A DNA stretch of 64,000 nt from Heloderma charlesbogerti (taxonomy: Eukaryota > Chordata > Lepidosauria > Squamata > Helodermatidae), in NCBI GenBank assembly GCA_026122225.1, contig JANEZZ010001632.1, positions 434,001 through 498,000 of the forward strand. Reading direction: 5' to 3'. Below the pieces are notes generated by a model that was not told where the DNA came from, ran no database searches, and saw only the letters and a list, made by a program, of their open reading frames with translations. This document shows, in pieces, positions 2,813 to 63,213 of this stretch. Position numbers and translations under genes: made by a program. How positions within the stretch are numbered: position 1 is the stretch's first letter; each line of letters begins with the position of its first letter.

Positions 2813-3150
2813 TAGGGATGTTAGAGAAGTCCGCCACAGATCCCAGGGAAGCTGAATTCCAGTGAATTCGGTCCTCCAGAATCCGTGGTGGAACGGAGCA
2901 ACCCACCCCACTACCCTGCGAAAGCCCCGCGAAACGGAGCCTACCTGGCTGTGGCTCCGGCGGCAGCTCCAGCGGCTCTAGCCACTGCCGGGCTGCGGCC
3001 ACAAAGCCGGCCGCCATTTGCATCCTTGGCAAGCCGTGATAGGCTACTTAAGTATCTACATAGCCTATCACAGCTCAGGGCAGGGGCGCAAATGGCGTAG
3101 CGGCCGCCATTTGCGCCCCTGTCTTTAGCCATGATAGGCTATGTATATAT
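2813..3150 (-). mobile_element. palindromic hAT MITE, copy A (damaged)
   Basis: It starts TAGGGATGTTAGAGAA and continues with a decayed version of the end seen in copies E, G and H (CCGCCACAGATC, then a decayed GAATTC region). It then shows the diagnostic modules: GCCGTGATAGGCTACTTAAG with its inverted partner, and GCAAATGGCG with CGCCATTTGC. The far end is lost. A CCGACATCCCTA at 3310-3321 resembles a family terminus, but the two flanking 8-mers agree at only about four positions, so the right boundary is unresolved. Confidence 0.6.
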
Positions 3151-3692
3151 TTACTAAATGTGCATAAAATTCCGGAATGTAAAAATCAATCAATAAACCA
3201 GTCTGCAAGTCCATGGAATCCATCTGACTCTGGAAAAGCCAGTCTGCTGCAGAACCTGTGGGTCAGGTTCATAGAAATCTGAACTACTTTGGTTCCATTG
3301 CAGATTTCTCCGACATCCCTACCCCACAGCCAGCATGCCGATTGGCTGGGGAGTCCGGGTAGTTGTTGTCCCACACATCTGGAGGGCACCACAATGGGGA
3401 AGGCTGGCTTAACTCTTAAAAGTCCGGGTTGAATCCCTGTGTATTCAACCCTGTTTGGTGTGGTGGTGAATTAGGTTTGCCATCTCTTTTTTTTCCTGAC
3501 GTCTTTAGCAGCCTCATGACAGGCAGGCACAACATGGTCCTGTCCATGTTAGGAACAGTTGTCCCTATTGCATTTGGCTGGTGCAGAAGGGTGAGAATTT
3601 GGCTTCAATTCATGTTTTTAATCAGAACTTACTAAAATCTGTAAAAACAGATTTAAAACAGGTTTTAAAGCAGATTTTAAAGCAGATTTTAG
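3151..3692. other. no gene recognised
   Basis: About 540 bp. The only patterns are the terminus-like CATCCCTA at 3314-3321 and a short imperfect repetition of CAGATTTTAAAG at about 3650-3690. No protein-coding signal. Confidence 0.5.
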
Positions 3693-5580: not shown

Positions 5581-6144
5581 AGTGGGCCTCAAGTGAAATC
5601 AACTGGAACTCGTCTAAGACAGTGGGACTGGCAAAATATGTGGACACCTCCTTCCTTGAATCTATGTTCAGTCTGGAATCCAAATTAAACAACTGCGAGT
5701 GATTTTATCTGCAAGCTGCCCAGCAAACATGTCCTAGCAGGCTACCCTACATTCAGTCTGTCAGATATTTGCCAATACTCACATAAACAGCTCTAGGCAG
5801 ATGCAAGCAAGGCCGGGTTCATAACTAAGAATATATATTAAGTAACAAGCACACTGTGTAAAGCGAGTAGATAGAACAAAGCAGCAGATTCAGCATAACT
5901 GTGGATTCACTGAGATTCAAATAATTAGCAATTATCTCCCACTGCAAAGAATGAATGTACGGAAAACAGAATTCTCTATGAAAATATCATTAACTACAGA
6001 AGGTGCAGGATCACAAATCAACTCTACCTGGAGGTTTGTCTTTTTGTTCTGGATAGCATTCTGGATACCCTCTATGAGTAGAGGGCGACTGTCCCTAGCA
6101 GGGAGCCCTCTGTGTCCATGGGGGCTCTCATGTGATTAAAGAGA
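5581..6144. other. no gene recognised
   Basis: About 560 bp of apparently unique, AT-leaning DNA with no recognised repeat or coding signal. Confidence 0.5.
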
Positions 6145-6331
6145 GGGCTGTAGCTTAGCGGTAGAGCCCCTGCTTTGCATGCAGAAGGTCCCAGGTTCAA
6201 TACCCAGAATCTCCAGGTAAATCTGGAAATATTCCTGTCTGAAACCCTGGGGAGCCGCTGCCAGGCAGTGCTAACAGTATTGGGGTGGATGGACCCCTGG
6301 TCTGACACGGTATAAGGCAGCTTCCTATATT
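6145..6331 (+). repeat. tRNA-Ala-derived SINE, near complete
   Basis: The 5' half folds as a tRNA-like head. GGGCTGTAGCTTAGCGGTAG gives the A box, CTTTGCATGC gives an anticodon loop with TGC (Ala), and GGTTCAATACC gives the B box. The 3' body has CTCCAGGTAAATCTGG, CCTGTCTGAAACCCTGG, TGGATGGACCCCTGGTCTGA and ends TATAAGGCAGCTTCCTATAT. This organisation is a lineage-specific SINE transcribed by RNA polymerase III from internal promoters. It has no ORF. Confidence 0.85.
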
Positions 6332-6657: not shown

Positions 6658-9600
6658 ACCTCTTCATGGATCACTGCCTTGTTGTGGCGAAGGGGCTTGT
6701 GAAACTCAGTGAAGCCATAAGCTACCCAAGATTGACAGGTCATGGCGGAGAATTCTGTCAAAATGTGGTCCACTGGAGAAGGAAATGGCAACCCACTCCA
6801 GTATTCTTGCCAAGAAAACCCCATGGAACGTATCACAAGGCTAAAAGAGATGACTCTGGAAGATGAGCCCCTCAGGTCGGAAGGTGTCCAATATACTACT
6901 GGGGAAGAGCAGAGGGAATTTCCAAGTAGTGCCAGAAAGAGTGAGGCGGCTGGGCCAAAGCCGAAGGGACACACAGCTGTGGATGTGTCTGGTGGTAAAA
7001 AGAAAGTCCGATGCTGTAAAGAACAATATTGTTTAGGAACCTGGAATGTAAGATCAATGAATCAAGGTAAGCTGGAGGTGGTCAAACACGAGATGGCAAG
7101 ACTGAACATCGACATCTTGGGAATCAGCGAACTAAAATGGACAAGCATGGGCGAATTTAATTCAGGTGACCATCCTATCTACTACTGTGGGCAAGAATCC
7201 CTTAGAAGAAATGGAGTAGCACTCATAGTCAACAAAAGGGTGGCAAAAGCAGTACTGGGGTACAATCTCAAAAACGATAGAATGATCTCAGCACGAATCC
7301 AAGGCAAACCATTCAACATCACAGTAATTCAAGTCTATGCCCCAACCACTGAGGCAGAAGAAGCTGAGGTTGATCGGTTCTATGAAGACCTACAACACCT
7401 TCTAGAACTAACACCAAAAAAAGATGTCCTCTTCATCATAGGGGATTGGAATGCTAAAGTAGGAAGTCAAGAAATCACCGGGATAACAGGCAAGCATGGC
7501 CTTGGTGTACAAAATGAAGCAGGACAAAGGCTAATAGAGTTTTGCCAAGAGAACACGCTGATCATAGCAAATACTCTTTTCCAACAGCACAAGAGGCGAC
7601 TTTACACATGGACATCACCAGATGGTCAATATCGAAATCAGATTGATTATGTACTTTGCAGCCAAAGATGGAGAAGCTCCATACAGTCAGTAAAAACAAG
7701 ACCTGGAGCTGACCGTGGCTCAGATCATGAGCTTCTTGTTGCAAAATTTCGGCTTAAATTGAAGAACATGGGGAAAACCACTAAACCATTCAGGTATGAC
7801 CTAAATCATATCCCTTATGAATATACAGTGGAGGTGAGGAATAGATTTCAGGGATTAGACCTGATAGATAGAGTGCCTGAGGAACTATGGACGGAGGTCC
7901 GTAACATTGTTCAGGAGGCAGCAACGAAATCCATCCCAAAGAAAAAGAAATGCAAGAAAGCAAACTGGCTGTCTGATGAGGCTTTAGAAGTAGCTGAGGA
8001 ATGAAGGGAAGTGAAAAGCAAGGGAGAAAGGGGAAGATATATCCAACTGAATGCAGAGTTCCAGAGAATAGCAAGGAGAGTCAAGAAGGCCTTCTTAAAT
8101 GAACAATGCAAAGAAATCGAGGAGAACAATAGAATGGGAAAGACTAGAGATCTCTTCAAGAAAATTGGAGATCTCAAGGGAACGTTTTGTGCAAAGACGG
8201 GCATGATAAAGGAAAAAGGAGGCAGGGACCTAACAGAAGCAGATGAGATTAAGAAGAGGTGGAAAGAATACACAGAAGAACTATACAGGAAAGATCTTAA
8301 TGTCCCTGATAACCAAGATAGTGTGGTCACTGAACTTGAGCCGGACATCCAAGAGAGTGAAATCAAGTGGGCCTTAGGAAGCATTACTAACAACAAAGCT
8401 AGCAGAGATGACACTATTTCAGCTGAGCTATTTTAAATCCTAAAAGATGATTCTGTTAAAGTGCTGCACACAATATGCCAACAAATTTGGAACACTCAAC
8501 AGTGGCCACAAGACTGGAAAAGGTCAGTTTACATTCCAATTCCAAAGAAGGGCCATGCCAAAGAGTATTCAAACTACTGTACAATTGTGCTCATTTCACA
8601 TGCCAGCAAGGTGATGCTCAAAATCCTACAAGCTAGGCTTTAGCAGCATGTGAACTGAGAACTACCGGAAGTACAAGCGGGGTTTCGAAGAGGCAGGGGA
8701 ACTAGAGATCAAATCGCCAACATTCGCTGGATCATGGAGAAAGCAAGAGAATTCCAGAAAAATGTCTATTTCTGCTTCATTGACTACGCTAAAGCCTTTG
8801 ATTGTGTGGATCACAACAAACTGTGGCAAATTCTTAAAGTGATGGGAGTACCAGACCACCTTACCTGAGAAACCTGTACGAGGGACAAGAAGCAACAGTA
8901 AGAACCGGACATGGAACAACCGATTGGTTCAAAATTGGGAAAGGAGTACGACAAGGCTGTATATTGTTGCCCTGCTTATTTAATTTTTATGCAGAGTACA
9001 TCATGAGAAACGCCGGGTTGGATGAATCACAGGTCGGAATTAAGATTGCCGGGAGAATTATCAACAAGCTCAGATACGCAGACGATACCACCCTAATGGC
9101 AGAAAGCGAAGAGAATCTAAAGAGCCTCTTGTTGAGGGTGAAAGAGGAGAGTGCAAAAGCTGGTTTGAAACTCAACATTAAAAAAACTAAAATCATGGCA
9201 TCTGGCCCCATCGCTTCCTGGCATATAGAAGGGGAAGAAATGGAAGCAGTGACAGATTTTATTTTCTTGGGCTCCAAGATCACCGCAGACGGTGACTGTA
9301 GCCATGAAATTAGAAGACACTTGTTTCTTGGGAGGAAAGCTATGGCAAACCTACACAGCATAGTACGAAGCAGAGACATCACCTTGCCGACAAAGATTCG
9401 TATAATCAAAGCTATGGTTTTCCCAGTAGCAACGTATGGCTGTGAGAGCTGGACTATAAGGAAGGCCGAGCGCCGAAGAATTGATGCCTTCGAACTGTGG
9501 TGCTGGAGAAGACTCTTACGAGTCCCCTGGACTGCAAGGAGGTCAAATCAGTCAATCCTAAAGGAAATCAACCCTGAGTGCTCATTGGAAGGACAGAGAC

Positions 9601-9855
9601 TGAAGCTGAAGCTGAAATATTTTGACCACCTAATGCGAAGAGAAAACTCCCTGGAAAAGACCCTGATGCTGGGAAAGATGGAAGGCAAAAGAAGAAGGGG
9701 ACGGCAGAGGATGAGATGGCTAGATAGCATCACTGATGCAATGAATATGAATTTGAGCACACTCTGGGAAAGAGAGGAGGACAGGAAGGCCTGGCGTGCT
9801 ATGGTCCATGGGGTCACGAAGAGTCAGACACGACTTAATGACTGAACAACAAAGG
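6658..9855 (+). mobile_element. BovB (RTE-clade) LINE, near full length, copy 1
   Basis: An approximately 3.2-kb non-LTR retrotransposon flanked by GTTCCTATT at 6649-6657 and 9856-9864. It opens with the 5' region CTTCATGGATCACTGCCTTG and ends with the BovB 3' signature, GGTCACGAAGAGTC...GACTGAACAACAA. That signature is close to the one known from ruminant and squamate BovB. It encodes an APE-type endonuclease and a reverse transcriptase in one ORF, now broken. BovB is known to have spread between squamates and ruminants by horizontal transfer. Confidence 0.95.
6742..9845 (+). pseudogene. BovB endonuclease/reverse transcriptase ORF, disabled
   Basis: The ORF encoded the bifunctional protein that nicks target DNA and copies the element RNA. 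The endonuclease shows GTWNVRSMN near residue 99, IGDWNAKVG near 235 and SDHELL near 327. The RT core YADD is at 9075-9086, and the protein ends HGVTKSQTRLND. Breaks by comparison with the copies at 51.9 and 25.1 kb: nonsense TGA at 8002-8004 (Arg codon elsewhere), TAA near 8434, TAG at 8641-8643, a further TGA about 12 bases on, and a deletion of about 7 bp near 8867 that shifts the frame. The protein cannot be made, but the pieces show recognisable similarity throughout. Confidence 0.92.
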
Positions 9856-10699: not shown

Positions 10700-10909
10700 A
10701 AAGCCAGGCGTTGTGGGAGGGCTTTCCCAGGAGATTGCCCATGGTACAGAACCCAGTTTGCCCTCCACACTACGGCTCAACCCATTCAGCAGAGCCTCCT
10801 GGCTCTATAGCATTTTCAGGGGGGCTGGAAGGGCTTCCAGGGGAAAGAGCGGGTGGGGAAGTCCACTTCCATCAGCACAGAGTTGATACAGCATAAATCT
10901 GGATTCAAC
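10700..10909 (-). repeat. family K repeat, copy 3, interrupted at its end by element B
   Basis: In inverted orientation it carries the K blocks: ATTCAGCAGAGCCTCC, TAGCATTTTCAGGGG, GGGGAAGTCCACTTCC and the terminal TCTGGATTCAACCC. The last block is split. Element B inserted into it, duplicating GATTCAAC (10902-10909 and 11879-11886), so the K terminus finishes at about 11889. K was therefore present before B. Confidence 0.7.
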
Positions 10910-11878
10910 TAGGGATGGCGGAGAATTTCTCCACAAATCTCTGGGAGGCCGAATGCCAATGCATTCAGCCCCCCGAAATTGGTGGGGAGATTCTCCGCCG
11001 GCCCCCCGCCCCCCCCGGGATGGGACTTACCGTGGCCGAATGTCCCTCTTGGCGGCGGGTCCCGGCGGCGGTTCGGCAGCGTTTCGTGGGGGGCGGCGGC
11101 CGGTCTCCTGACCGGCTGCCGCCGCCGCCGCCATTGCAAAAAAAAAAAGTAAAGTAAAAAAAAACAACACACACCCGTGATAGGCTACGTAACGATTTAC
11201 GTAGCCTATCACGGCTAGATTTCCAAAGTCAGCCGTGATAGGCTACGTAAATCGTCACGAAACCTATCATGGGTGACTTTGGAAAAAAAAAAAAAGCACG
11301 TACGCAAATGGTGGCGGCCCATGGGCGCTGCCATTTGCGTTCCTTATTTTGGCACGTCTAGTCTGTGTAAAGATTTACGTAGACTACAGCGAAAATAAGG
11401 GAACGCTATTTGCGTTGCCCTTATTTTTGCCGTAGTCTACGTAAATCTTTACGTAGACTAGACGTGTCAAAATAAGGAACGCAAATGGCGGTCCCCATGG
11501 GAGCCGCCATTTGCGTACGCGCTTTTTTTTTTCTTTTTCAAAGTCACCCGTGATAGGCTACGTGATGATTTACGTAGCCTATCACGGCTGACTTTGGAAA
11601 TGTAGCTGTGATAGGCTACGTAAATCGTTACGTAGCCTATCACGTGTGTGTGTGTGTGTTTTTACTTTTTTTTTTTGCGGCCGGGTAGACGGGGCGCTCC
11701 TACCCGGCCTGAATTTCGCCGGTGAGGGATGAGGCGCCTCCCCCCGGGCCTGAATTTCAGCCGGGCAAGGCGGGGCGCCTCCCCCCCCTCGCCTGAACTT
11801 CGGGGGGAGAACCGAAGCGCCTGCCCCCCACCGCGAAGCAAGCTTCGAGAACAGCTAAGGGACTTTCGTCCATCCCTA
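10910..11878 (-). mobile_element. palindromic hAT MITE, copy B
   Basis: A 969-bp element with perfect 8-bp target duplications, GATTCAAC, on both sides. Ends are TAGGGATGGCGGAGAATT and ...CGTCCATCCCTA. The interior from about 11150 to 11680 is one large imperfect palindrome centred near 11405. Each arm is a series of shorter hairpins. Two GTGATAGGCTACGTAA / TTACGTAGCCTATCAC hairpins come first, then GCAAATGGTGGC / GCGCTGCCATTTGC, then GTCTAGTCT...TTTACGTAGACTA. Oligo-A and oligo-T spacers separate them. Outer segments are GC- and CpG-rich. A donor-like GGTAAGT faces outward (minus strand, 11035-11041); the partner at the other end is mutated. There is no transposase, so it would need one in trans. 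Target length and ends fit hAT. Confidence 0.9.
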
Positions 11879-11974
11879 GATTCAACCCATTGACAGTTTT
11901 CATTGCTGGATTCTGAATGGTTGGGAGATGGGTCCCAAATGACTCCCTGAGAGATTCTTCCTATGGAGATGAAT

Positions 11975-16008: not shown

Positions 16009-16871
16009 TAGGGATGGTGGAGAATTTCTCCCCGAAACTTCGGGGGGCCGAGCGCCAACATGTTCGGCCCCCCGAACAAGTTTCGGGGAGAAATTCTCCG
16101 CACCCCCCCACTCCCCGCACCCCCCCCGGGACAGGACTTACCTTTGGCGAATGTCCCTCCCGGCGGCGGGTCTGACCGGCGGTTCGGCGGGTGTTCGTGC
16201 GGGGCGGGAGCGGCAGCCGGTCTTTCGACCAGCTGCCGCCGCCGCCATTCCAATAAAAGAAAAAAAAACCCGCCCCCGTGATAGGCTACGTGACGATTAA
16301 CGTAGCCTATCACGGCTAGATTTGCAAAGTCAGCCGTGATAGGCTACGTAAATCATCACGTAGCCTATCACGGGTGACTTAAAAAAAAAAAAAAGTGTGT
16401 ACGGATAATGGCGGCCCCCATAGGGAGCCGCCATTCCCGTTCCTTATTTGGTCACTGTAGTCTATGTAAAGATTTACATAGACTACGGCGAAAATAAGGG
16501 CAACGCTATTTGCGCTTTTTTTTTTTTTAAAGTCACCCGTGATAGGCTATGTGACGATTAACGTAGCCTATCACGGCTGACTTTGCAGATCTAGCCGTGA
16601 TAGGCTACGTTAATCGTCACGTAGCCTATCACGGGGGCGTTTAAAAAAAAACAAAAAAACAATGGAGTTCGCGGCCGGGCGAGGCGGGAAGCTTCCTCCC
16701 CGGCCTGAATTTCAGCCGGGCGAGGCGGGAAACCTCCCCCCGGCCTGAATTTCGGCCGGGCGAGGCGGGAAGCCTCCCCCCCGCCTGAACTTCGCGGGGG
16801 GAGCAGCGAAGCGCCTCCCCCCCACCGCGAACAAGCTTCGATGACAGGTAAGTGACTTTTGTCCACCCCTA
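16009..16871 (-). mobile_element. palindromic hAT MITE, copy C
   Basis: An 863-bp element with perfect 8-bp target duplications, ATTCGGAG (16001-16008 and 16872-16879). Ends are TAGGGATGGTGGAGAATT and ...TTTGTCCACCCCTA. It carries four TGATAGGCTACGT-type hairpins, two on each side of a shortened centre, plus one GTAGTCTATGTAAAG hairpin and an imperfect GCGGCCCCCATAGGGAGCCGCC hairpin. Its central part is shorter than in B and D, with one hairpin pair lost. Donor-like GGTAAGT motifs face outward at both ends: minus strand at 16136-16142, plus strand CAGGTAAGT at 16845-16853. Outer blocks are CpG-rich. Confidence 0.9.
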
Positions 16872-23047: not shown

Positions 23048-24030
23048 TGAGCTGTGGGCAAATGGCCTCTTGAAATTCTCCACTAGGGATGTGAGAACCC
23101 ATCCCAGTTCAGGTTCTCCAGGCGCCAGCCGAGCTCTCCACCCACTCTCTGGCCCTCCAGGCTGCAGTCAAGCCTCCCCTCCACACTTGGTAAGCAGCCT
23201 GCAACTTGGTAAGCAGACCAAAACTGGCATCCGTGCCATCCCTATTCTCCACCCTATTTGTGGGCAAGACAATTTCACTGAATTTCTCTGGGGGAAGGAA
23301 AAATTCTCCAACAGTTCCTAACAGGTAGGGCTCAGCATTGGCATGGTAATAGCATAGCTTTTTCTCCCCATCCCTAAGGTTTGTTTGTTTTTTTGGCACT
23401 GTCACTGCAAGTGGCAACCAACAGCATCAACTGTGTTGGCAGCCATTTTGCATCCTACAATGCCCTATACCTACCGTCCTTCTGGGTCATTGTGGGGAGT
23501 GGGTGGGTGGGGGAGGAGGCAGCTACCACCACAAAAAATGGTAAAGAAAGTTCTGCAAATGTATTTCTAGGGGGGAGGGGGGTAAGAAAAGAAAAATCCC
23601 AGAACCTTGTTGGGAAAAAATTATTCTGAGAAATTTTGGCTTGGCTCTAGTTGACATCCTTCAGGGTTCAGCACTTTCCTCAGGGCCTTCCACATGTTAA
23701 ATTTCTGAGGGGTTATTGTCTCTAATCTTGTCTCTAATGCAGTTGCTTATCATACCACTATTTCCCCGGAAGCCCTGTAGCAGCTGTGAGGGGGGCACAG
23801 TTATGTGATGTCCAGCTCCAGGGAAGAGGTGGAGCTAGTGCTCTGCCAAAATCTGTCAATTTCTTTAACATTTTCTTCCCCTGCGAAAGAGGCTTCCATT
23901 TTTCTGCCTCCATCTCAGGGTGTTTTATAATACGTATATTTTGAATTTATTTTTGGTGGTGATTTTGAGCTTGCCTATGCATTGTGAGATGGCCAACAGC
24001 GCGGTGTGTGTTTTCTTTCTATTGCACATG
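23048..24030 (+). mobile_element. family J element, copy 4, interrupted by a MITE
   Basis: The left end is ATGAGCTGTGGGCAAATGGC. After 36 bp it is interrupted by the MITE at 23084-23244, and it resumes with TTCTCCACCCTATTTGTGGG. It retains the long-form internal segment (TTCAGGGTTCAGCAC, CCATTTTTCTGCCTC) shared with copy 3. It loses similarity after CTATTGCACATGAGAATG, so the right third is gone. Confidence 0.7.
23084..23244. mobile_element. small hAT-type MITE inside J copy 4, perfect 8-bp duplication
   Basis: A 161-bp insertion from TAGGGATGTGAGAACCC to GTGCCATCCCTA, with TTCTCCAC duplicated exactly at 23076-23083 and 23245-23252. Removing it restores the J sequence. Its ends resemble the TAGGGATG families, but the interior is short and lacks the hairpin array. 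Confidence 0.88.
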
Positions 24031-25105: not shown

Positions 25106-27148
25106 TTGTTGTTCAGTCGTTCAGTTGTGTCCAACTCTTCGTGACCCCATGGACCATAGCACGCCAGGCCTTCATGTCCTGCGCTCTCTTCAGTTCACAT
25201 ACTGCTGAAGCCTAGCTTGTAGGATTTTGAGCATAACTTTGCTGGCATGTGAAAATGACCACAATTGTACGGTAGTTTGAACACTCTTTGGCATTGCTCT
25301 TCTTTGGAATTGGAATGTAAACTTACCTTTTCCAGTCTTGTGGCCATTGTTGAGTGTTCCAAATTTGTTGGCATATTGAGTGCAACACTTTAACAGCATC
25401 ATATTTTAGAATCTTAAATAGCTCAGCTGGAATACTGTCATCTCCGCTAGCTTTGTTGTTACTAATGCTTCCTAAGGCCCACTTGACTTCACTCTCTAGG
25501 ATCTCCAGCTCAAGTTCAGTGATATCATGGCTATCAGGGACATTAAGATCTTTCCTGTATAGTTCTTCTGTGTATTCTTTCCACCTCTTCTTAATCTCAT
25601 CTGCTTCTGTTAGGTCCCTGCCTTCTTTGTCCTTTATCATGCCCATCTTTGCACAAAATGTTCCCTTGATATCTCCAATTTTCTTGAAGAGATCTCTAGT
25701 CTTTCCCATTCTGTTGTTTTCTTTGATTTATTTGCATTGTTCATTTAAGAAGGCCTTCTTGTCTCGCCTTGCTATTCTCTGGAACTCTGCATTCAGTTGG
25801 GTATATCTTCCCCTTTCTCCCTTGCTTTTTGCTTCCCTTCTTTCCTCAGCTACTTGTAAAGCCTCATCAGACAGCCAGTTTGCTTTCTTGCATTTCTTTT
25901 TCTTTGGGATGGATTGAGCTGCTGCCTGCTGAACAATGTTACGGACCTCCGTCCATAGTTCCTCAGGCACTCTATCTATCAGGTCTAATCCCTTAAATCT
26001 ATTCCTCACCTCCACTGTATATTCATAAGGAATATGATTTAGGTCATACCTGAATGGTTTAGTGGTTTTCCCTACGTTCTTCAATTTAAGCCGAAATTTT
26101 GCAACAAGAAGCTCATGATCTGAGCCACGGTCAGCTCCAGGTCTTGTTTTTACTGACTGTATAGAGCTTCTCCATCTTTGGCTGCAAAGGACATAATCAA
26201 TCTGATTTCGATATTGACCATCTGGTAGATGTCCATGTGTACAGTCGCCTCTTGTGCTGTTGGAAAAGAGTGTTTGCTATGATTAGCATGTCCTCTTGGC
26301 AAAATTCTATTAGCCTTTGTCCTGCTTCATTTTGTACACCAACGCCATGCTTGCCTGTTATCCTGGTGATTTCTTGACTTCCTACTTTAGCATTCCAATC
26401 CCTTATGATGAAGAGGACATCTTTTTTTGGTGTTAGTTCTAGAAGGTGTTGTAGGTCTTCATAGAACCGATCAACCTCAGCTTCTTTGGCCTCAGTGGTT
26501 GGGGCATAGACTTGAATTACTGTGATGTTGAATGGTTTGCCTTGGATTCGTACTGAGATCATTCTGTCATTTTTGAGATTGTACCCCAGTACTGCTTTTC
26601 CCACCCTTTTATTGACTATGAGTGCTACTCCATTTCTTCTAAGGGATTCTTGCCCACAGTAGTAGATAGGATGGTCACCTGAATTAAATTCGCCCATGCT
26701 TGTCCATTTTAGTTCGCTGATTCCCAAGATGTCGATGTTCAATCTTGCCATCTCATGTTTGACCACCTCCAGCTTACCTTGATTCATTGATTACATTCCA
26801 GGTTCCTAAACAATATTGTTCTTTACAGCATCGGACTTTCTTTTTACCACCAGACACATCCAGAGCTGAGTGTCCTTTTGGCTTTGGCCCAGCCGCTTCT
26901 CTCTTTCTGGCACTACTTGGAAATTCCCTCTGCTCTTCCCCAGTAGTACATTGGACACCTTCCGACCTGAGGGGCTCATCTTCCGGCGTCATATCTTTTA
27001 GCCTTGTGATACGTTCCATGGGGTTTTCTTGGCAAGAATACCGGAGTGGGTTGCCATTTCCTTCTCCAGTGGACCACATTTTGTCAGAACTCTCCGCCAT
27101 GACCTGTCCGTCTTGGGTGGCCCTGCACGGCAGTGATCCATGAAGTGG
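25106..27148 (-). mobile_element. BovB LINE, copy 2, internally deleted
   Basis: It is flanked by TCTTATATTAT at 25095-25105 and 27149-27159, an exact 11-bp duplication. It opens on the plus side with the inverted BovB 3' end (TTGTTGTTCAGTCGTTCAG). After only about 80 bp, near 25190, it jumps to text far upstream (ACATACTGCTGAAGCCTAGC). More than 1 kb of the RT C-terminal half, including the YADD region, is missing. The 5' end is at GGCAGTGATCCATGAAG. Length is 2,043 bp. Confidence 0.93.
25190..27075 (-). pseudogene. BovB endonuclease/RT ORF, deleted and frameshifted
   Basis: Reading the minus strand, pieces at about 27187-26774, 26787-26197, 26084-25728 and 25709-25323 cover the N-terminal region, the APE endonuclease (NIDILGISELKW, IIRDWNAKVG where other copies have IGDWNAKVG) and the start of the RT (KANWLSDEAL, GSISNNKASGDD). 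Frame changes separate them, one near 26785 where GTWNVRSMNQ of copy 1 is replaced by a shifted version. The catalytic RT core is absent through the large deletion. Confidence 0.88.
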
Positions 27149-27159
27149 TCTTATATTAT

Positions 27160-28120
27160 ACCCACATGCTACTGGTAATCCTTTCATACCTTCCTTGAGT
27201 CACTGGGATGGGATGGACTCTGTCCATTTAAATAAACACCATTGCCAGTTGGCATGGTAACCTCTCTTTTGGTTTCCCATGAACTATTGGTGGGTCCTCC
27301 AGATCGCTTTTATTTGTGGGAGTCACTGTTCTAAGCCCTCCATCCATGCGTTCTTTCCAAAGTATATATTACTTTTCCGTGTGGAAACGTTCCACCAGTA
27401 TATGTCTCTGCCTTCGATTAAGTCTGTGTGTGTTCTTTTCTCAGGTCACATCTTTTGGATTGTTTTGTCTTCATGTTTAAGCTTTTTTGTTGTTGTTTAA
27501 GCCATTGTACTCTTTGTGCTTGGAACTGCCTTCTTCTCTCCATGCACGAACAGCCTTCCAGTCAATTATTCCTTTGAATGCATTTCCCTAAAGAAAACAT
27601 ATCCAGCCAAACTACATAAGCCTCTCTCCAACTCTGGAATGGACCACTTGTTACTCCTTACTTGTATTAAGCATTAAACATATATTGTCCTCCTAGTTTT
27701 AGACTGTAAGCTTGTTGGGATATAGACAATTTCCTTTCTGATGTTTTTACTGGAGTTGATGGCACACAAAAAATGCTATTTTTCCCTGTCCCCCAAAACT
27801 GAGAAACCATACATTCTAGAGAGCAAATAATTTCTCATAGTAGGTAAAAGTGAGTGCTTTGGAGTTCTGCTTTGTTTTGCGATGCACCTGTACACTAAAG
27901 GGAGCAAGATGTCTCCAAAATATTCTCCTTCCAAAGTTACATTACAGGTATTGTTTTGTTACAAACAGAGCTAATTGTTTTGAGAATAAATGTGGTTTTT
28001 AAAATTAAATATTCTACTTGGGAGTTGGTGGTAGAAAACTTTTCCAACCTTGTATTATAGTTAGGCAGCCAACCAACATTGACTTGATATGGCTCAGGCA
28101 CACAGCCCATTGAAATATCG
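27160..28120. other. no gene recognised
   Basis: About 960 bp of AT-rich DNA. A stretch at about 27700-27770 (AGACTGTAAGCTTGTTGGG) is a weak match to the L2-like 3' UTR. No coding signal. Confidence 0.45.
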
Positions 28121-32356: not shown

Positions 32357-33375
32357 TAGGGATGTACGAAAGTCACTTACCTTTTCGCAGCTTGGCTTCG
32401 CGGTGGGGGGGAGGAGCTTCGCTTTTCCCCCCGAAGTTCAGGCGAAGGGAGGGAGGCTTCCCACCTCGCCCGGCCGAAATTCAGGCCGGGGGGGAGTCTT
32501 CCTGCCTCGCCCGGCCGAAATTCAGGCCGGGGAGAAGCGCCCCGTCTCCCCGGCCGCGAAACAAAAATTAAAAAAAAAAGACCCTGTGATAGGCTACGTG
32601 ACGATTTACGTAGCCTATCACGGCTATATTTCCAAAGTCAGCCGTGATAGGCTACGTAAATTGTCACGTAGCCTATCATGGGTGACTTTGAAAAAAAAAA
32701 AAAAAGCGCGTGAGCAAATGGCGGCGGCCCATGGGCGCTGCCATTTGCGTTCCTTATTTTGGCACGTCTAGTCTACGTAAAGATTTACGTAGACTACGGT
32801 GAAAATAAGGGCACGCTATTTGCGTTGCCCTTATTTTCTCTGTAGTCTACGTAAATCTTTACGTAGGCTAGGGGTGCCAAAATAAGGAACGCAAATGGCG
32901 GCGCCCATGGGCCGCCGCCATTTGCGTACGTGCTTTTTTTTTTCAAAGTCACCCGCTATTTGCGTTGCCCTTACTTTCGCCGTAGTCTACGTAAATCTTT
33001 ACGTAGACTAGACGTGCCAAAATAAGGAACGCAAATGGCGGCGCCCATGGGCCACCGCCATCTGCGTACGCGCTTTTTTTTTTTCAAAGTCACCCGTGAT
33101 AGGCTACGTGACGATTTACGTAGCCTATCACGGCTGACTTTGGAAATCTAGCCATGATAGGCTACGTAAATCATCACGTATCACGGGTGTGGTTTTTTTT
33201 TTACTTTACTTTTTTTTTTTTTGCGGTACCCGCCGCCGGGAGGGACATTCGCCAAAGGTAAGTCCTGTCCCGGGGGGGCGGGGGGGGGCGGAGAATTTCA
33301 CCGCCGATTTTGGGGGCCGAATGCGTTGGCGCTCGGCCCCCCGAAGATTCGGGGAGAAATTCTCCGCCATCCCTA
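32357..33375 (+). mobile_element. palindromic hAT MITE, copy D, with internal tandem duplication
   Basis: A 1,019-bp element. Flanking 8-mers CCTATCGC and CCTATCTC agree at seven positions. Ends are TAGGGATGTACGAAAGTC and ...TTCTCCGCCATCCCTA. The interior holds the same alternating hairpins as B, with both outer TGATAGGCTACGT pairs. One block of 140 bp (from CGCTATTTGCG at 32814) is repeated directly from 32954. Donor-like GGTAAGT motifs face outward: minus strand 32375-32381, plus strand AAGGTAAGT 33255-33263. A small deletion in the last TAGCCTATC arm (about 33180) breaks that hairpin. GC-rich shoulders are full of CpG. Confidence 0.88.
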
Positions 33376-38543: not shown

Positions 38544-39506
38544 TAGGGATGTATGAAAGTCACTTACCTTTTCGAAGGGTGACATTCGCGGTGGGGGGAG
38601 GCACTCCCCCTCCCCCCGAAATTCTGTCCAGCCGGCTCCGCTCCGCCGAGATTCTGCGGAGCCGCCAGCCAGGGCCGCCCACAGCCAGACATCCGGCCGC
38701 TGGGCAGCCTGCAGGGACACAAATGGCGGCTGCCGGGACCGCCACCGTTTGCGTCCCTGTATTTTGCCGTGATAGGCGTCGTAAATATTTACGTAGCCTA
38801 TCATGGCAAGCAAAAAAAAAACAGCGGACGCAAATGGCGGTGGCTACGGTGGCTGCCATTTGCATTCCCTTTTTTTCGCCGTTTTAGCCAACATAAATAT
38901 TTACGTAGGCTATTACGGTGAAAAAAAAGGGGAACGCAAATGGCGTAGTGGGCACCATTTGCATTCCTTTCCCCCCCGCCATTTTAGCCTACATAAATAT
39001 TTACATAGGCTATTATGGCGGGGAAAAAAGGAACGCAAATAGCGCCCACTACGCCATTTGCATCCCCCCCTTTTTTTTTCTGTAATAGCCTACGTAAATA
39101 TTTACGTAGGCTAAAATGGTGAAAAAAAGGGAAAGCAAATGGCAGCCGCCGTAGCCACCGCCATTTGCGTCTGCTGTTCTTTTTTTTTTTTGCTTGCCAT
39201 GATAGGCTATGTAAATACATAGCCTATCACGGCCTCCGCAGGGACGCAAATGGCGTCCCTGCGTTAGCCGTGATAAGCTAAGTAATTATTTACGTAGCCT
39301 ATCACGGCTATGATGAGGAAGTGAATGGCGGCCGCAGATGCGGCCGCCATTCGCAAGTCAGCACAGACGGCAGCAGGTAAGTGCTCCATTTCGCACGCCT
39401 TTCGTGGGGGGGGGCGGGGGCTTCATTCCGCCACGGATTTCAGGGGGCCGAACGCATTGGCATTCGACCTCACCGAGATCCGTGGCGGAATTCTCTGACA
39501 TCCCTA
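38544..39506 (+). mobile_element. palindromic hAT MITE, copy E
   Basis: A 963-bp element with perfect 8-bp duplications, TTAAATTG (38536-38543 and 39507-39514). Ends are TAGGGATGTATGAAAGTC and ...TTCTCTGACATCCCTA. The interior is one large palindrome centred near 39002 (CCTACATAAATATTTACATAGG region). It alternates GCAAATGGCG / CGCCATTTGC hairpins with TAGCCTACRTAAATATTTAC hairpins. The last 90 bp form their own hairpin: CCGCCACGGATTTCAG pairs with GAGATCCGTGGCGG, with GCATTGGCATTCG inside. Outward donors: GGTAAGT on the minus strand at 38562-38568, CAGGTAAGT on the plus strand at 39374-39382. Confidence 0.9.
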
Positions 39507-45518: not shown

Positions 45519-46096
45519 TAGGGGTGTGCGGAACTCATCTCCAAGTCCGCCGGGGGGTCCATGGGGGGGGAGGTGATCCGTTCCTCCCCCCGAATCCTTC
45601 CTGGCTGGCTCCGCTCCACAGCGAGTCCGCAGAGCCTCCGGCCGGATCTGTCCGCTGCTGGACTGCCAGTCTTCAGACGCAAATGGCATCCGGCATAGCA
45701 GACACCATTTGTATCCCTGCCTTTTGCCGTGATAGGCTACGTAAATCTTTACGTAGCCTATCACGGCAAAGAGCAGGGACGCAAATGGCATAGCGGACTC
45801 CATTTGCGTCCCTGCTCTTTGCCATGATAGGCTACGTAAAGATTTACGTAGCCTATTACGGCAAAAGCAGGGACGCAAATGGTGTCTGCTACGCCGGATG
45901 CCATTTGCGTCTGAAGGCAGGCAGGAGCGGACGGGACAGGCGGCAGTGGCCGGCCAGCAGCAGGTGGGATCTGGCCTCGCGCAGCTTCCCCCGGGTGGCG
46001 GAGGTGAGTCCTGTTCTGCCGTGGACTCCGGGGGGGGGGGTGGATTCTTAGAATCCAGCCTCTTGGGGGCCGTGGTAGAATTCTCCGCCATACCTA
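45519..46096 (+). mobile_element. palindromic hAT MITE, copy F, short form
   Basis: A 578-bp element with flanks ATTATAAT and ACTATAAT (7/8). Ends are TAGGGGTGTGCGGAACTC and ...TTCTCCGCCATACCTA. It inserted across the right boundary of J copy 5. The central part (45670-45920) is a palindrome centred near 45797. It is made of two GTGATAGGCTACGTAAATCT-type hairpins flanked by GACGCAAATGGC / GCCATTTGCGTC hairpins. It keeps one donor-like GAGGTGAGT near the right end (46001-46009), and the left donor is absent. Long open frames across it (up to 196 codons) result from the stop-poor GC-rich shoulders. Confidence 0.88.
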
Positions 46097-47831: not shown

Positions 47832-48681
47832 TAGGGATGTACGAAATGTACTTACCTTTCCACGGATTATGTTTATGGGGGGGGGAGGCGTTCCGTCCCT
47901 CCCACCGGAATCCTCGACGGGGAGGGAGGCGCTCCGTTCCTCCCCCCCGGAATCCTCGATGGCTGGCTTTGCTCCGCGGCGGCTCCGCAGAGCAGCTGGC
48001 CAGGCCCAGTCCAGAGCCGTCCGCAGCCGGATTTCCGGCTGCAGAGGGCTCTGGGGAAAAAAACAAAACAAAACCGCGTACGCAAATGGCGGCGGCTACG
48101 GCCGCCACCATTTGCGTTCCTTATTTTTGGCCGTCTTAGTCTATGTAAATATTTACGTAGACTATGACAGCGAAAATAAAGGGGAACGCAAATAGCGTAG
48201 CGGGTGCTATTTGCGTCCCTTTTTGATTCGCCGTAAATATTTACATAGGCTAAAACGGCGAATCAAAAAGGGACACAAATAGCACCCGCTACACCATTTG
48301 CATTCCCCTTATTTTCACCGTCATAGTCTACGTAAATATTTACGTAGACTAAGACACCAAAAATAAGGAACGCAAATGGCAGCGGCCATAGCCGCCGCCA
48401 TTTGCGTACGCGGTTTTTTTTTTTTTACCCAGCCATGATAGGCTACGTAAATCTTTACGTAGCCTATCACGTCTTGGGGAAAAAAAAACACACAACCCCA
48501 CAGGTCTGCAAATGGGTGGCGGCCGCCGCCCAGAAGATCCGCCCCAGGTAAGTCTCGTCCTGGGGGGGATCCACGGGGGGGGGCAGGGGGGGGCAGGCCG
48601 TTCCGCCACAGATTTCAGGGGGCCGAATGCACTGGCATTTGGCCTCACCGAGATCCGTGGCGGAATTCTCTGCCATCCCTA
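47832..48681 (+). mobile_element. palindromic hAT MITE, copy G
   Basis: An 850-bp element with perfect 8-bp duplications, AATAAAAG (47824-47831 and 48682-48689). Ends are TAGGGATGTACGAAATGT and ...TTCTCTGCCATCCCTA. The interior palindrome spans about 48072-48412, centred near 48241. In order from the left it holds GCAAATGGCGGCGGC, TAGTCTATGTAAATATT, GCAAATAGCGTAGCGG and the central CCGTAAATATTTAC hairpin, then the mirror images. One more GATAGGCTACGTAAATC hairpin follows at 48437-48472. Outward donors: GGTAAGT minus strand at 47850-47856, CAGGTAAGT plus strand at 48545-48553. Confidence 0.9.
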
Positions 48682-48983: not shown

Positions 48984-50332
48984 CAGAGTGGACCAAAAGT
49001 AGGTATACAGTATAGTTTATTTGCATTTTATTGCATTGTTTATTACATTTACATTTGTTTAACACTGTTTAATCTCGTAAGTGCTCGAAATGAATTCCAT
49101 CAATGTTGCAACGTTCCTCGAACCTGTCTAGAATACTGTGACACACAGTACGACACAAATTCCAGTAAGCATCAATGTCCATAAATGCTTCCAAGATGAA
49201 CTCTTTTAATCCATCCACTATCCAGGGATTCCTCTCAAAAACCTTATTCTTTACTATGCCCCCCCAAAAGAAGTCCATTGGTGTTAAGTCGGGTGAACGT
49301 GGCGGCCATTCCAATGCTGTGGGAAGGTGTTGTCAAGATAGTCCCTTACTGCAAAAGCATAATGAGGAGGTGCCCCATCTTGTTGGAAGAGCAGTTTGGC
49401 GAAGTTAGCCCTGGTTCTGAGTTGTGGCACTACCACGTCGCGTAACATGTTTAGGTAATTGTTGCTATCCACAGTTGTATCGAAGAAAGCCAGTCCTACA
49501 ACACCTTCGCTGGACAGTGCACTCCACACTGTGACACCCGGCTGGTTCAGCTGAGATGTGATAGTCAAATGCGGATTTTCATCTGCCCAATACACACAGT
49601 TATGCCTGTTCACGTGGCGTGACAACTTGAAAGAAGCCTCATCTGATCAGATGATCTTATCAAGAAGGTGTGGTTCGTTAGAGATTTGGTTACACATCAT
49701 CTCACAGAATTGCAACTGGTGGTCTGGGTCGTCCTCCAGAAGACCATGTAACAGTCTTGGACGGTACGGCTTCAATTTCAATGTACGCATTAAGTGTTGC
49801 AAGGACGTTCTAGGTATGGATGGCTGCTTAGACGCATGTCGTGTGGACTTTTTCGGACTGTTCAAAAATGTAAGAGCGACTCTCATCTCATTTTCCTCTG
49901 TCATAGACATCCTAGGAGATCCAGATTTCGGTGCATTAGCCACTGCACCTGTTGCTTCAAATTTATCTCTAAGACATTGTCAGACGTGTTGGTGAAGGAC
50001 TGTCAGATGCTTCTTGCCATGCTGTGTGCACCCGCTCAGCATTTTCAGTCTTCCAGTACTGCTTTAGAATCCACTTTCTTTGTTCTTGACTCAAGTTCGC
50101 TGCCATCCTTCACAATATCAGTAAAAAAAACACCTAAATAACTAAACAACTATATACCTACTTAAGGGCCTCACTCCCCTCACTGTCTACAGTTAACTAA
50201 TTTAACTGTCACTCCCTGTCACTCAGTCTTCCCAACTATCATTCTGACTCCACCCACACATCTTCTACTCACATTCTCTCTCCGTCCCATCAACATTCTA
50301 AACAACTGTATACTTACTTTTGGGCCACCTGG
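48984..50332 (-). mobile_element. mariner/Tc1-superfamily transposon, dead copy
   Basis: 1,349 bp between TA dinucleotides (48982-48983 and 50333-50334). Terminal inverted repeats: CAGAGTGGACCAAAAGTAGG at the left and, inverted at the right, CCAGGTGGCCCAAAAGTAAG. A related terminal motif recurs internally near 50141-50170, as GGCCCTTAAGTAGGTATATA inverted. The element holds a single minus-strand transposase pseudogene. It lies outside the hAT material and is the only DNA transposon here with coding remains. Confidence 0.9.
49069..50106 (-). pseudogene. mariner-like transposase, frameshifted
   Basis: The protein would bind the TIRs and cut and paste the element. It starts MAANLSQEQRKW (ATG at 50106-50104) and shifts frame near 49980. 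Next come the DNA-binding/linker part (SLQHLMRTLKLKPYRPRLLH) and SDEASF after a TGA near 49649-49651. FQQDGAPPHYA carries the second catalytic Asp. A further frameshift near 49310 precedes WPPRSPDLTPMDFFWGG with the third acidic residue. The spacing to the last Asp looks short, suggesting a small deletion at the frameshift. The family resembles transposases common in arthropods. It is clearly non-functional. Confidence 0.88.
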
Positions 50333-51931: not shown

Positions 51932-54900
51932 TGTTGTTGTTCAGTCGTGTCCGACTCTTCGTGACCCCATGGACCATAGCATGCCTGGCCTTCCTGTCCT
52001 GCGCTCTCTCCCGGAGTGTGCTCAAGTTCATATTCATTGCATCGGTGATGCTATCTAGCCATCTCATCCTCTGCCGTCCCCTTCTCCTTTTGCCTTCAGT
52101 CTTTCCCAGCATCAGAGTCTTTTCCAGAGAGTTTTCTCTTCACATTAGGTGGCCAAAATATTTCAGCTTCAGCTTCAGTATCTGTTCTTCCAATGAGCAC
52201 TCAGGGTTGATTTCTTTAGGGTGGACTGATTTGACCTCCTTGCAGTCCAGGGGACTCGTAAGAGTCTTCTCCAGCACCACAGTTCGAAAGCATCAATTCT
52301 TCAGCGCTCAGCCTTCCTTATAGTCCAGCTCTCACAGCCATACATTACTACTGGGAAAACCATAGCTTTGATTAGACGGACCTTTGTCGGCAAGGTGATG
52401 TCTCTGCTTCTTACTAGGCTGTCTAGGTTTGCCATAGCTTTCCTCCCAAGGAGCAAGTGTCTTTTAATTTCATGGCTACAGCCACCATCTGCGGTGATCT
52501 TGGAGCCCAAGAAAGTAAAATCTGTCACTGCTTCCATTTCTTCCCCTTCTATATGCCAGGAAGTGATGGGGCCAGATGCCATGATCTTAGATTTTTTAAT
52601 GTTGAGTTTCAAACCAGCTTTTGCACTCTCCTCTTTCACCCTCAACAAGAGGCTCTTTAGATCCTCTTTGCTTTCTGCCATTAGGGTGGTATCGTCTGCA
52701 TATCGGAGGTTGTTGATAATTCTCCCAGCAATCTTAATTCCGACCTGTGATTCATCCAACCCGGCGTTTCTCATGATGTACTCTGCATATAAGTTAAAAA
52801 AGCAGGGCGACAATATGCAGCCTTGTCGTACTCCTTTCCCAATTTTGAACCACTCGGTTGTTCCATGTCTGGTTCTTACTGTTGCTCCTTGACCCTCGTA
52901 CAGGTTTCTCAGGAGACAGGTAAGGTGGTCTGCTACTCGCATCACTTTAAGAATTTGCCAGAGTTTGTTGTGATCCACACAATCAAAGGCTTTAACGTAG
53001 TCAATGAAGCAGAAATAGACATTTTTCTGGAATTCTCTTGCTTTCTCCATGATCCAGTGAATGTTGGCGATTTGATCTCTAGTTCCTCTGCCTCTTCGAA
53101 ACCCAGCTTGTACTTCTGGTAGTTCTTGGTTCGCATACTGCTGAAGCCTAGCTTGTAGGATTTTGAGCATCACCTTGCTGGCATGTGATATGAGCGCAAT
53201 TGTACGGTAGTTTGAACACTCTTTGGCGTTGCCCTTCTTTGGAATTGGAATGTAAACTGACCTTTTCCAGTCTTGTGGCCACTGTTGAGTGTTCCAAATT
53301 TGTTGGCATATTGTGTTCAGCATTTTAACAGCATCATCTTTTAGGATTTTAAATAGCTCAGCTGAAATAGTGTCATCTCCGCTAGCTTTGTTGTTAGTAA
53401 TGCTTCCTAAGGCCCACTTGACTTCACTCTTAAGGATGTCCGGCTCAAGTTCAGTGACCGCACTATCATGGCTATCAGGGACATTCAGATCTTTCCTGTA
53501 TAGTTCTTCTGTGTATTCTTTCCACCTCTTCTTAATCTCATCTGCTTCTGTTAGGTCCCTGCCTTCTTTTTCCTTTATCATGCCCGTCTTTGCACAAAAC
53601 GTTCCCTTGAGATCTCCAATTTTCTTGAAGAGATCTCTAGTCTTTCCCATTCTGTTGTTTTCCTCGATTTCTTTGCATTGTTCATTTAAGAAGGCCTTCT
53701 TGTCTCTCCTTGCTATTCTCTGGAAATCTGCATTCAGTTGGATATATCTTCCCCTTTCTCCCTCGCTTTTCGCTTCCCTTCTTTCCTCAGCTACTTGTAA
53801 AGCCTCATCAGACAGCCAGTTTGCTTTCTTGCATTTCTTTTTCTTTGGGATGGATTGAGTTGCTGCCTCCTGAATGTTTTGGACCTCTGTCCATAGTTCC
53901 TCAGGCACTCTGTCTATCAGGTCTAATCCCTGAAATCTATTCCTCACCTCCACTGTATATTCATAAGGGATATGATTTAGGTCATACCTGAATGGTTTAG
54001 TGGTTTTCCCTACGTTCTTCAATTTAAGCCGAAATTTTGCAACAAGAAGCTCATGATCTGAGCCACAGTCAGCTCCAGGTCTTGTTTTTACTGACTGTGT
54101 AGAGCTTCTCCATCTTTGGCTGCAAAGGACATAATCAATCTGATTTCGATATTGACCATCTGGTGATGTCCATGTGTAGAGTCGTCTCTTGTGCTGTTGG
54201 AAAAGAGTGTTTGCTATGATCAGCGTGTTCTCTTACCAAAACCCGATTAGCTTTTGTCCTGCTTCATTTTGTACACCAAGGCCATGCCTGCCTGTTATCC
54301 CGGTGATTTCTTGACTTCCTACTTTAGCATTCCAATCCCCTATGATGAAGAGGACATATTTCTTTGGTGTTAGTTCTAGAAGGTGTTGTAGGTCTTCATA
54401 GAACCGATCAACCTGAGCTTCTTCGGCCTCAGTGGTTGGGGCATAGACTTGAATTACTGTGATGTTGAATGGTTTGCCTTGGATTCGTACTGAGATCATT
54501 CTATCATTTTTGAGATTGTACCCCAGTACTGCTTTTGCCACCCTTTTGTTGACTATGAATGCTACTCCATTTCTTCTAAGGGATTCTTGCCCACAGTAGT
54601 AGATATGATGGTCACCTGAATTAAATTCGCCCATGCCTGTCCATTTTAGTTCGCTGATTCCCAAGATGTCGATGTTCAATCTTGCCATCTCATGTTTGAC
54701 CACCTCCAGCTTACCTTGATTCATTGATCTGACATTCCAGGTTCCTAAACAATATTGTTCTTTACAGCCTCGGATTTTCTTTTCACCACCAGACACATCC
54801 ACAGCTGAGTGTCCTTTCGGCTTTGGCCCAGCCACTTCACTCTTTCTGGCGCTACTTGGAAATACCCTCTGCTCTTCCCCAGTAGTATATTGGACACCTT

Positions 54901-55165
54901 CCGACCTGAGGGGCTCATCTTCCGGCGTCATCTCTTTTAGCCTTGTGATACGTTCCATGGGGTTTTCTTGGCAAGAATACTGGAGTGGGTTGCCATTTCC
55001 TTCTCCAGTGGACCACATTTTGTCAGAACTCTCTGCCATGACCTGTCCGTCTTGGGTGGCCCTGCACGGCATAGCTTATGGCTTTACTGAGTTATGCAAG
55101 CCCCTTCACCACAACAAGGCAGTGATCCATGAAGGGGCTCAGTGATCAGGGATCAGTGATCCATG
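51932..55165 (-). mobile_element. BovB LINE, copy 4, full length
   Basis: A 3,234-bp element with an exact 11-bp duplication, AACTCTGAAAT (51921-51931 and 55166-55176). The 3' end lies at 51932 (inverted AACAACAACAA, GTCGGACACGACTG). The 5' end at 55165 has CATGGATCACTGATCCCTGA followed by a second ATGGATCACTGCC, a small tandem duplication absent from the other copies. It retains the whole ORF apart from point lesions, making it the best-preserved BovB in the window. Confidence 0.95.
51935..55072 (-). pseudogene. BovB endonuclease/RT ORF, few lesions
   Basis: Reading down from 55072, the APE endonuclease is intact through IGDWNAKVG. A TAA at 54235-54233 replaces a Gln codon (CAA in copy 1). 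The same frame then stays open through SDHELL and the whole RT domain, with YADD at 52702-52691, to a TGA at about 52300-52298. There copy 1 has CGA, so this is a typical CpG decay. The C-terminal tail to RTRLNN continues with at least one further frame change. A 3-bp deletion near 53876 keeps frame. Two nonsense codons therefore separate it from an almost complete ORF. Confidence 0.9.
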
Positions 55166-62234: not shown

Positions 62235-63213
62235 TAGGGATGTATGAAAGGGACTTACCTTTCGCAGATTATGTTGATGATGGGGGGGAGGCGTTCCGTC
62301 CCTCCCCCCGGAATCCTCGATGGGGGGGAGGTGATCCGTTCCTCCCCCCCGGAATCCTCGATGGCCGGCTGTGCTCCGCGGCAGCTCTGCGGAGCAGCCA
62401 GCCAGGCCCAGCCCAGCCCAGAGCTGTCCGCAGCCGGATTTCCGGCCATGGAGGGCTCTGGGGAAAAACACACACAACTGCGTACGCAAATGGTGGCGGC
62501 TATGGCTACCACCATTTGCGTTCCTTATTTTTCGCCGTCTGAATCTACGTAAATATTTATGTAGACTATGACGGCGAAAATAAAGGGGAACGCAAATAGC
62601 ATAGCAGGCACTATTTGCGTCCCTTTTTGATTCCCCATTTTAGCCTACGTAAATCTTTACGTAGGCTAAAATGGGGAATCAAAAAGGGACGCAAATAGCG
62701 CCTGCTACGCTATTTGCGTTCCCCTTTATTTTTGCCGTCATAGTCTACGTAAATATTTAAGTAGACTAAGACGGCGAAAAATAAGGAATGCAAAATGGCG
62801 GCGGCCATAGCCACCGCCATTTGCGTACGCAGTTTTTTTTTTTTAACCCACCCAGCCATGATCGGCTACGTAAAGATTTACGTAGCCTATCATGTCGTGT
62901 TTTTTTTTTAAAACCTAGCCATGATAGGCTACGTAAATCTTTACGTAGCCTATCACGTCTTTTTTTTCTTTTACAAGACTGGAAATGGCGGCAGCGGCAG
63001 CCAGTCGGAAGATCAGCCGCCACAGCCGCCGCTGCTGCCACTGCCGCCGGAGTTGCCGCAGCCCGGAAGATCTGCCCCAGGTAAGTCTTGTCCCTGGGGG
63101 CATCCACCGGGGGGGGGCGGGGGGGCAGGCCGTTCCGCCACGGAGTTCGGGGGGCCGAATGCACTGGCATTCGGCCTCACCGAGATCCGTGGCGGAATTC
63201 TCTGCCATCCCTA
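62235..63213 (+). mobile_element. palindromic hAT MITE, copy H
   Basis: A 979-bp element with perfect 8-bp duplications, CTTTTTTG (62227-62234 and 63214-63221). Ends are TAGGGATGTATGAAAGGG and ...TTCTCTGCCATCCCTA. The main palindrome spans about 62482-62828, centred near 62654 at CCTACGTAAATCTTTACGTAGG. Its arms carry the same hairpin series as copy G. Two more TAGGCTACGTAAA hairpins stand in tandem at 62858-62957, where G has only one. Outward donors: GGTAAGT minus strand at 62253-62259 and CAGGTAAGT plus strand at 63078-63086. G and H are the closest pair. Confidence 0.9.

Follow-up and report, generated by a model that had tools for sequence, protein, structure and literature searches.

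The question raised by this locus is how the interior of a miniature transposon came to be a large palindrome built from smaller palindromes, and whether that symmetry is mended after insertion or made before it. The window, a 64,000-nt stretch of a Heloderma charlesbogerti contig, contained eight elements (A to H) that the first-pass annotation had largely described as one hAT MITE family. Element B was laid out as follows:

10910..11878 (-): element B, a whole hAT MITE of 969 bp, with its A-end at 11878 and its B-end at 10910
10902-10909 and 11879-11886: target duplication (TSD) GATTCAAC, 8/8
11854..11878 (-): A-end TAGGGATGGACGAAAGTCCCTTA, read on the minus strand and related to the A-end of an autonomous relative
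11688..11787: GC-rich 40-41-bp tandem repeats adjoining the A-end, similar to some in the autonomous relative
11144..11676: palindromic array of units T T G t g t G T T, from an inverted-repeat search
11175..11214: level-1 T hairpin, an 18-bp stem (11175-11192/11197-11214) with a 4-nt loop
11172..11275: level-2 palindrome of two T hairpins, with 45-nt arms
11545..11648: mirrored level-2 T-T pair, with 45-nt arms
11479..11516: G hairpin of the GCAAATGGCG type, from an inverted-repeat search
10910..11004: B-end with a hairpin of its own (arms 10912-10945/10971-11004)

The termini of B were TAGGGATGG and CCATCCCTA, and its interior was nested at three levels: the T hairpin, the T-T palindrome and the whole array. 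The outer arms of the array (11144-11295/11525-11676) ran for 152 nt at 88%, the inner arms (11318-11401/11418-11501) for 84 nt at 90%, and 16 nt at 11402-11417 formed the centre. T and t units had the core CTACGTAAAT.TTTACGTAG in common, G hairpins were of the GCAAATGGCG type and g hairpins of the GCAAATAGCG type. Folded as RNA, the 532-nt core reached -450 kcal/mol, or -264 kcal/mol with pairing limited to 50 nt. Folds this stable would suit an RNA-level role, with transcripts forming long dsRNA or small hairpins (a source of siRNA, piRNA or miRNA, or a decoy) and the fold itself being conserved. Any palindrome gives stable folding, however, the array had no Rfam match at gathering scores, and the sample of B-type copies described below showed no covariation, so that we regard such a role as very improbable. 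Viral contigs held no match to the hairpin core.

The other elements in the window were:

2813..3321 (+): copy A, a family remnant with no TSD
16009..16871 (-): copy C, with a contracted centre; TSD ATTCGGAG, 8/8
32357..33375 (+): copy D, B-type with a 140-bp internal tandem duplication at 32814-33096; TSD 7/8
38544..39506 (+): copy E, with the longest array; TSD TTAAATTG, 8/8
45519..46096 (+): copy F, with the array GTGTG; TSD 7/8
47832..48681 (+): copy G, H-type, its centre unit partly lost; TSD AATAAAAG, 8/8
62235..63213 (+): copy H, H-type, with 139-bp arms and a 2-nt loop; TSD CTTTTTTG, 8/8

Together, elements A to H occupied 6,730 of the 64,000 bp, and those with a TSD measured 578-1019 bp. 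The unit order TTGtgtGTT of B recurred in D, with the inner 140-bp tandem duplication added (its two copies 93% alike), and G and H had the order G-t-g-u-g-t-G-T(T). The first (TACGTA-stem) motif occurred 46 times at up to two mismatches, compared with a mean of 0.13 and a maximum of 2 in 100 shuffles, and the second motif 51 times at up to one mismatch (shuffles: mean 3.4, maximum 9). Aligned to their own reverse complements, all eight elements scored 68-434, above shuffle maxima of 31-61, and hairpins scoring at least 12 were present in 8/8 elements and 0/80 shuffles. In 40 stretches of 900 bp drawn at random from the rest of the window, the self-reverse-complement score averaged 39.9 and reached 133 at most, and because of that upper value the palindrome score of A (68) is weak. 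The first-pass annotation was borne out on its central point: nested inverted repeats were found in B, with motif and hairpin counts far above shuffles, the two-level symmetry was seen in most window copies, and copy C had the same hairpins around a contracted centre, as described. The 8-bp target duplications it reported were complete (8/8) in B, C, E, G and H; D and F reached 7/8 (chance level 0.15 pairs of at least 7/8 per shift), and A had none.

The hAT superfamily has short terminal inverted repeats (TIRs) beginning YARNG, and hAT MITEs, such as mar of Drosophila, make 8-bp TSDs. The short TIR of the present family, TAGGGATG../..CATCCCTA, fits the YARNG start, and the elements are short, without coding capacity and present in many copies of similar size, as in MITEs. 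Like mar, they combine the lack of coding capacity with terminal inverted repeats of hAT type; a nested hairpin array and a large internal palindrome are, to our knowledge, absent from the usual hAT MITEs. Three further insertions with TAGGGATG-like ends, at 23084-23244, 56529-56943 and 61587-62003 (TSD 8/8, 7/8 and 7/8), had no T/G motifs inside and probably represent miniature versions of other, similar hAT elements.

According to the first-pass annotation, genome-wide copy number and an autonomous hAT with the same ends would reveal the source of the family, and we obtained the one and located a likely candidate for the other. The genome searched comprised 2.30 Gb in 3,246 contigs. The hairpin core CTACGTAAATNTTTACGTAG had 71,274 exact matches on the forward strand and 71,194 on the reverse strand, with 0 for the reversed control; the variant whose middle base is A is self-complementary and contributes to both counts. 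The A-end pattern at up to two mismatches gave 44,942 + 44,746 = 89,688 matches genome-wide, with 0 for the control; it recovers four of the eight window elements and favours H-type-like A-ends, and the true copy number, extrapolated from one window, may be about twice that figure. Of the first 40 A-ends listed, all of which lie on contig C1 and were neither selected for palindromes nor random over the genome, 39 carried hairpin units and scored above their own shuffles; the sole exception (L117) had no hairpin array. A TSD of 7-8/8 lay within the stretch read for 14 of the first 20 A-ends listed.

Searches with the interiors gave the same two-sided pattern. The best 40 of 2,551 candidate places for the B interior each matched both strands, at 93-95% on the better strand (B itself apart) and 88-91% on the other, and the best 40 of 4,205 candidate places for the H core again matched both. 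Among the 40 B-type places (39 and B), 31 had a TSD of at least 6/8, 25 of them 8/8, and nine had none, scored as the best candidate end pair (10/1,736 in a control with shifted right flanks). In one of the loci read (L026), a B-type element was nested inside a second TAGGGATG-type end pair with the TSD CAATCCAG (8/8).

Whether the mirror is real is decided by the asymmetric linkers, because palindromes set in tandem give a palindromic array in any case. The mirror could be apparent, each tandem palindromic unit being a centre of symmetry in its own right; the units are indeed palindromes, and one autonomous copy (L078, below) carries a direct ~77-bp tandem t-g array. The local score of the two halves was nevertheless 410 mirrored versus 141 direct in the B-type and 374 versus 141 in the H-type. 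With linkers mirrored and not repeated, a mere tandem repeat of palindromes was rejected for both types, and an apparent mirror is extremely unlikely as an account of the family; it could hold for short arrays such as that of F. The H-type consensus, made from eight copies picked by unit order (six of the first 20 listed A-ends, with G and H of the window), matched at 195 of 197 mirror pairs with no spacer, forming a 394-bp palindrome. In the consensus of 31 B-type copies, 221 of 226 arm positions matched, as did 257 of 267 over 201-480, a wider stretch that includes A/T tracts. As reconstructed from these consensus sequences, the palindromes were near perfect when the copies inserted. The arm length of roughly 120-270 bp first proposed stood for the consensus sequences, with about 230-255 paired positions in the B-type and 197 in the H-type; the ungapped arms of individual copies ranged more broadly (68 in F, 139 in H). 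The array was centred on g in the B-type, on u in the H-type and on a G unit in F.

A candidate for the autonomous partner of the family lay at C235:52195-61581 (9,387 bp; TSD CACAACAC, 8/8). It started with TAGGGATGTCAGAGAAATTCTC at 52195, its last bases were CCACCCCAA, and it contained an 879-aa open frame with PF05699, the domain lying at 57497-57748, between both ends; the PF05699 profile search had returned, as the best 150 of 871 candidate places, hits that were all over the cut-off, and 17 of the 150 fell within open frames of at least 870 aa. Ends were read in copies on contigs C235, C1330 and C2152, with both ends read in C235 alone. The C1330 and C2152 copies terminate at ..GTAAGTGACTTTCGTCCACCCCTA, where their similarity stops. 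A sister copy (L078), whose left end was not found, had an 883-aa open frame with PF05699 at E 6.8e-17, a zf-BED score of 20.2 bits against a cut-off of 20.6, and a match to Hermes in PDB over residues 772-839. The best five of 7,988 candidates scored for the transposase were squamate proteins at 37-41% identity, one of them named ZBED4-like, and distant matches were named 'putative AC transposase'. Judged from these sequence matches, the family is probably an Ac-like, BED-finger kind of hAT. The earlier assignment to hAT MITEs is backed by the ends, the 8-bp TSDs and an element with a hAT-transposase frame that shares with the MITEs its kind of ends and its A-side array. Two transposase loci 48 kb apart on contig C307 (L072 and L073) were identical over the matched length, either because the locus was duplicated recently or because the assembly contains it twice.

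In all three autonomous copies read there, the array adjoining the A-end comprised one or two t units, G, T and T, followed by GC-rich 40-bp repeats, and the opposite side of the C235 and C1330 copies, over the first 2.5 kb of sequence covered, showed scattered single motifs and no array. In the parts read, the autonomous relative has half the array, beside one end. The A-side of the C1330 copy (536 bp) was colinear with B consensus 1-540 at 82%, and part of it gave a mirrored match to B consensus 403-733 at 83%. Read from these alignments, the miniature elements carry the half-array of the relative and a mirror image of that half-array. The B-side of the MITEs (~225 bp) matched the B-end of the relative over the last ~22 bp only, and weakly (86%, E 0.01), and its other matches in the loci read were solely to other miniature elements inserted there. 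Because this match ends at ~22 bp, this relative is not the direct parent of the MITEs. Another autonomous copy, on contig C1725 (L080), had at 2780-2890 a B-side run of GAAAGTGAAATGGGCTC repeats with AAGT in each, possibly transposase-binding repeats.

The A-end has retained its array in all three autonomous copies examined on that side and at 39 of the 40 A-ends as listed, which raises the possibility that selection keeps the symmetry. The hairpin units would then be two-fold sites bound by a host factor or a BED-finger transposase dimer, elements with more and better-paired sites would win, and the symmetry would be adaptive instead of a replication by-product. Hermes, a hAT element, has short scattered repeats and is not known to have a hairpin array. 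The BED domains of its transposase bind, cooperatively, a quasi-palindromic subterminal repeat, and quasi-palindromic AAGT repeats lie near the tip of the element (PMC10368747); a comparable AAAGTNACTT occurs here, where binding is putative. This motif lay at 13-22 of H-type and autonomous A-ends, with the Hermes AAGT-like pair AAGT and ACTT at 14 and 19. The B-type A-end has its first half only and lacks the second half of AAGT/ACTT, however, and the H-type array is devoid of AAGT/ACTT (found only at 14, 19 and 790), so binding there would have to rely on another motif. Nor would binding to single sites need identity over 200-bp arms, and we think selection of this kind possible yet rather unlikely as the source of the symmetry.

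The history of the arms was read from their substitutions. The 31 B-type copies had a K2P distance to consensus of 0.049 (non-CpG 2.5%), an age biased young because copies were chosen as nearest to B. Over the whole element (387 pairs), these copies showed 46 double changes against 46.9 expected; in the array alone, mirror pairs gave 23 against 23.8 and local hairpin pairs 6 against 13.8. The arms of inserted B-type copies decayed independently, without correction, and with double changes at expectation, gene conversion of arms after insertion was rejected for this type. Of 14 deletions of at least 4 bp inside the B-type palindrome none touched the centre, in a sample that consists of the best full-length matches and is biased accordingly. 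The eight H-type copies exceeded expectation (29 double changes against 18.7), several of these being transversions on both sides of one pair in one copy. We read this excess as unsorted source lineages or sub-subfamilies; it could also reflect some symmetrising after insertion.

Among more diverse copies, the two sides changed together. In the 21 of 44 copies that passed 85% coverage, 140 mirror pairs had changed on both sides, compared with 43-66 when slid, and 124 local pairs, compared with 41-52 when slid, an excess due in part to the exchange of whole hairpin types (T, t, u) for each other. A tree of arms was built from 21 sources chosen for two-sided arrays (two consensus sequences, which have copies in common with other rows, five window copies and 14 of the 40 A-ends). 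These gave 42 arms, of which one left arm (L112) was dropped as too short, and the first tree also included four autonomous half-arrays. Left and right arms grouped by subfamily (support for F 100/99), with many forks weak. Forcing the 20 left arms together against the 21 right cost 157.9 lnL (p-AU 4e-114), in a test run after the tree had been seen. One ancient mirror event followed by separate evolution of the arms was rejected at that value. Because the arms of each subfamily group together and the centres differ, the symmetry appears to have originated or been renewed within several source lineages.

Ordinary gene conversion or unequal exchange between the many dispersed copies could also have made the arms alike, with no fold-back involved. 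The great abundance of the family would favour such exchange, as would the 140-bp duplication in D with its 93% alike copies, whereas the independent change in the arms of the 31 close B-type copies means that it was not frequent after insertion, and the arms tree keeps subfamilies distinct; we judge it unlikely. Autonomous half-arrays nested among the B-type arms in the tree, a position that would also fit the loss of one half by the relative or the acquisition of its half-array from a miniature element.

The reading we favour, and consider reasonably probable, is of non-autonomous hAT elements whose palindrome arose by fold-back inverted duplication of a half-array, which are moved by the ~9.4-kb relative and whose symmetry was remade in source lineages. 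We infer movement by a hAT transposase because of the ends, the TSDs and the array, and the ~9.4-kb autonomous relative, with long open frames still present, probably mobilises the miniature elements in trans. A single-stranded 3' end would fold back at a hairpin, g in the B-type and u in the H-type, and copy its own half-array into a mirror image, either while the gap left behind by excision is repaired or through a template switch where a fork has stalled. Template switches over shorter distances would keep individual hairpins symmetric, and elements thus formed would spread in bursts. The array adjoining the A-end may be a subterminal transposase-binding region, which would explain its retention. 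No break point directly displays the fold-back, and unit exchange within the array would likewise yield concerted change. More tentatively, and with rather less confidence, we suggest that palindrome making may be coupled to transposition, each successful miniature offshoot re-mirroring the half-array by fold-back, so that near-perfect 400-500-bp palindromes would be repeatedly made and spread genome-wide.

Breaks near inverted repeats in yeast give rise to inverted duplications, for which fold-back priming has been proposed (PMC10622511), and hairpins can be created and mended through template switching (PMC8794818). The process proposed here would likewise yield perfect inverted repeats and compensating pairs; the first of these reports concerns yeast breaks and the second RNA genes, whereas the present case is a very high-copy transposon family. 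In Galileo and Foldback elements, inverted repeats grow and change, for example through internal tandem repeats, with high structural turnover (PMC4168063). Galileo is a P-superfamily element with long inverted repeats at its termini, whereas the present elements are hAT, with an internal palindrome of alternating hairpins. Foldback and Galileo elements are defined by long terminal inverted repeats and a P or Mutator-type transposase, whereas we found an internal palindrome and, in the relative, a hAT transposase. We found no description of such an element among the open-access papers searched, and the family may be an undescribed one, as the first-pass annotation inferred.

Large palindromes are generally regarded as unstable, and this genome carries very many of them, near perfect at insertion, despite that expectation. 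Because the copies of a subfamily were nearly alike at birth and then decayed, they amount to a replicated natural experiment, one that can show the rate at which palindrome centres are lost, the mending of arms after insertion (no sign of it in 31 B-type copies) and the formation of mirrors. Beyond what the first-pass annotation had described, the present analysis adds the half-array relative, the independent decay after insertion and the concerted evolution of arms between subfamilies, and the half-array of the relative makes the origin of the palindrome directly testable.

Several smaller observations concern motifs in the elements and other parts of the window. G hairpins (e.g., 11479-11516) contain ATGGCGGC, which we take to resemble a YY1 site, so one G hairpin can hold two back-to-back YY1-like sites. 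Among B and C to H, several copies had outward-pointing motifs, presumably splice-donor-like, with AGGTAAGT/CGGTAAGT close to the B-end (in F, AGGTGAGT) and CTTACC close to the A-end. Broken open frames at 49284-49979 (-) looked, by eye, like a Tc1/mariner transposase. BovB-like RTE pieces with long open frames were present at 6736-9845 (+), 25323-27199 (-) and 52301-55075 (-), the last with ~80% identity to Podarcis and Varanus proteins and ruminant proteins equally near (67-80%). The sole Rfam match in the window, a tRNA-like RF00005 at 6144-6215 (+) with 32 bits, lay ~500 bases ahead of a BovB-like piece and is perhaps a tRNA-derived SINE.
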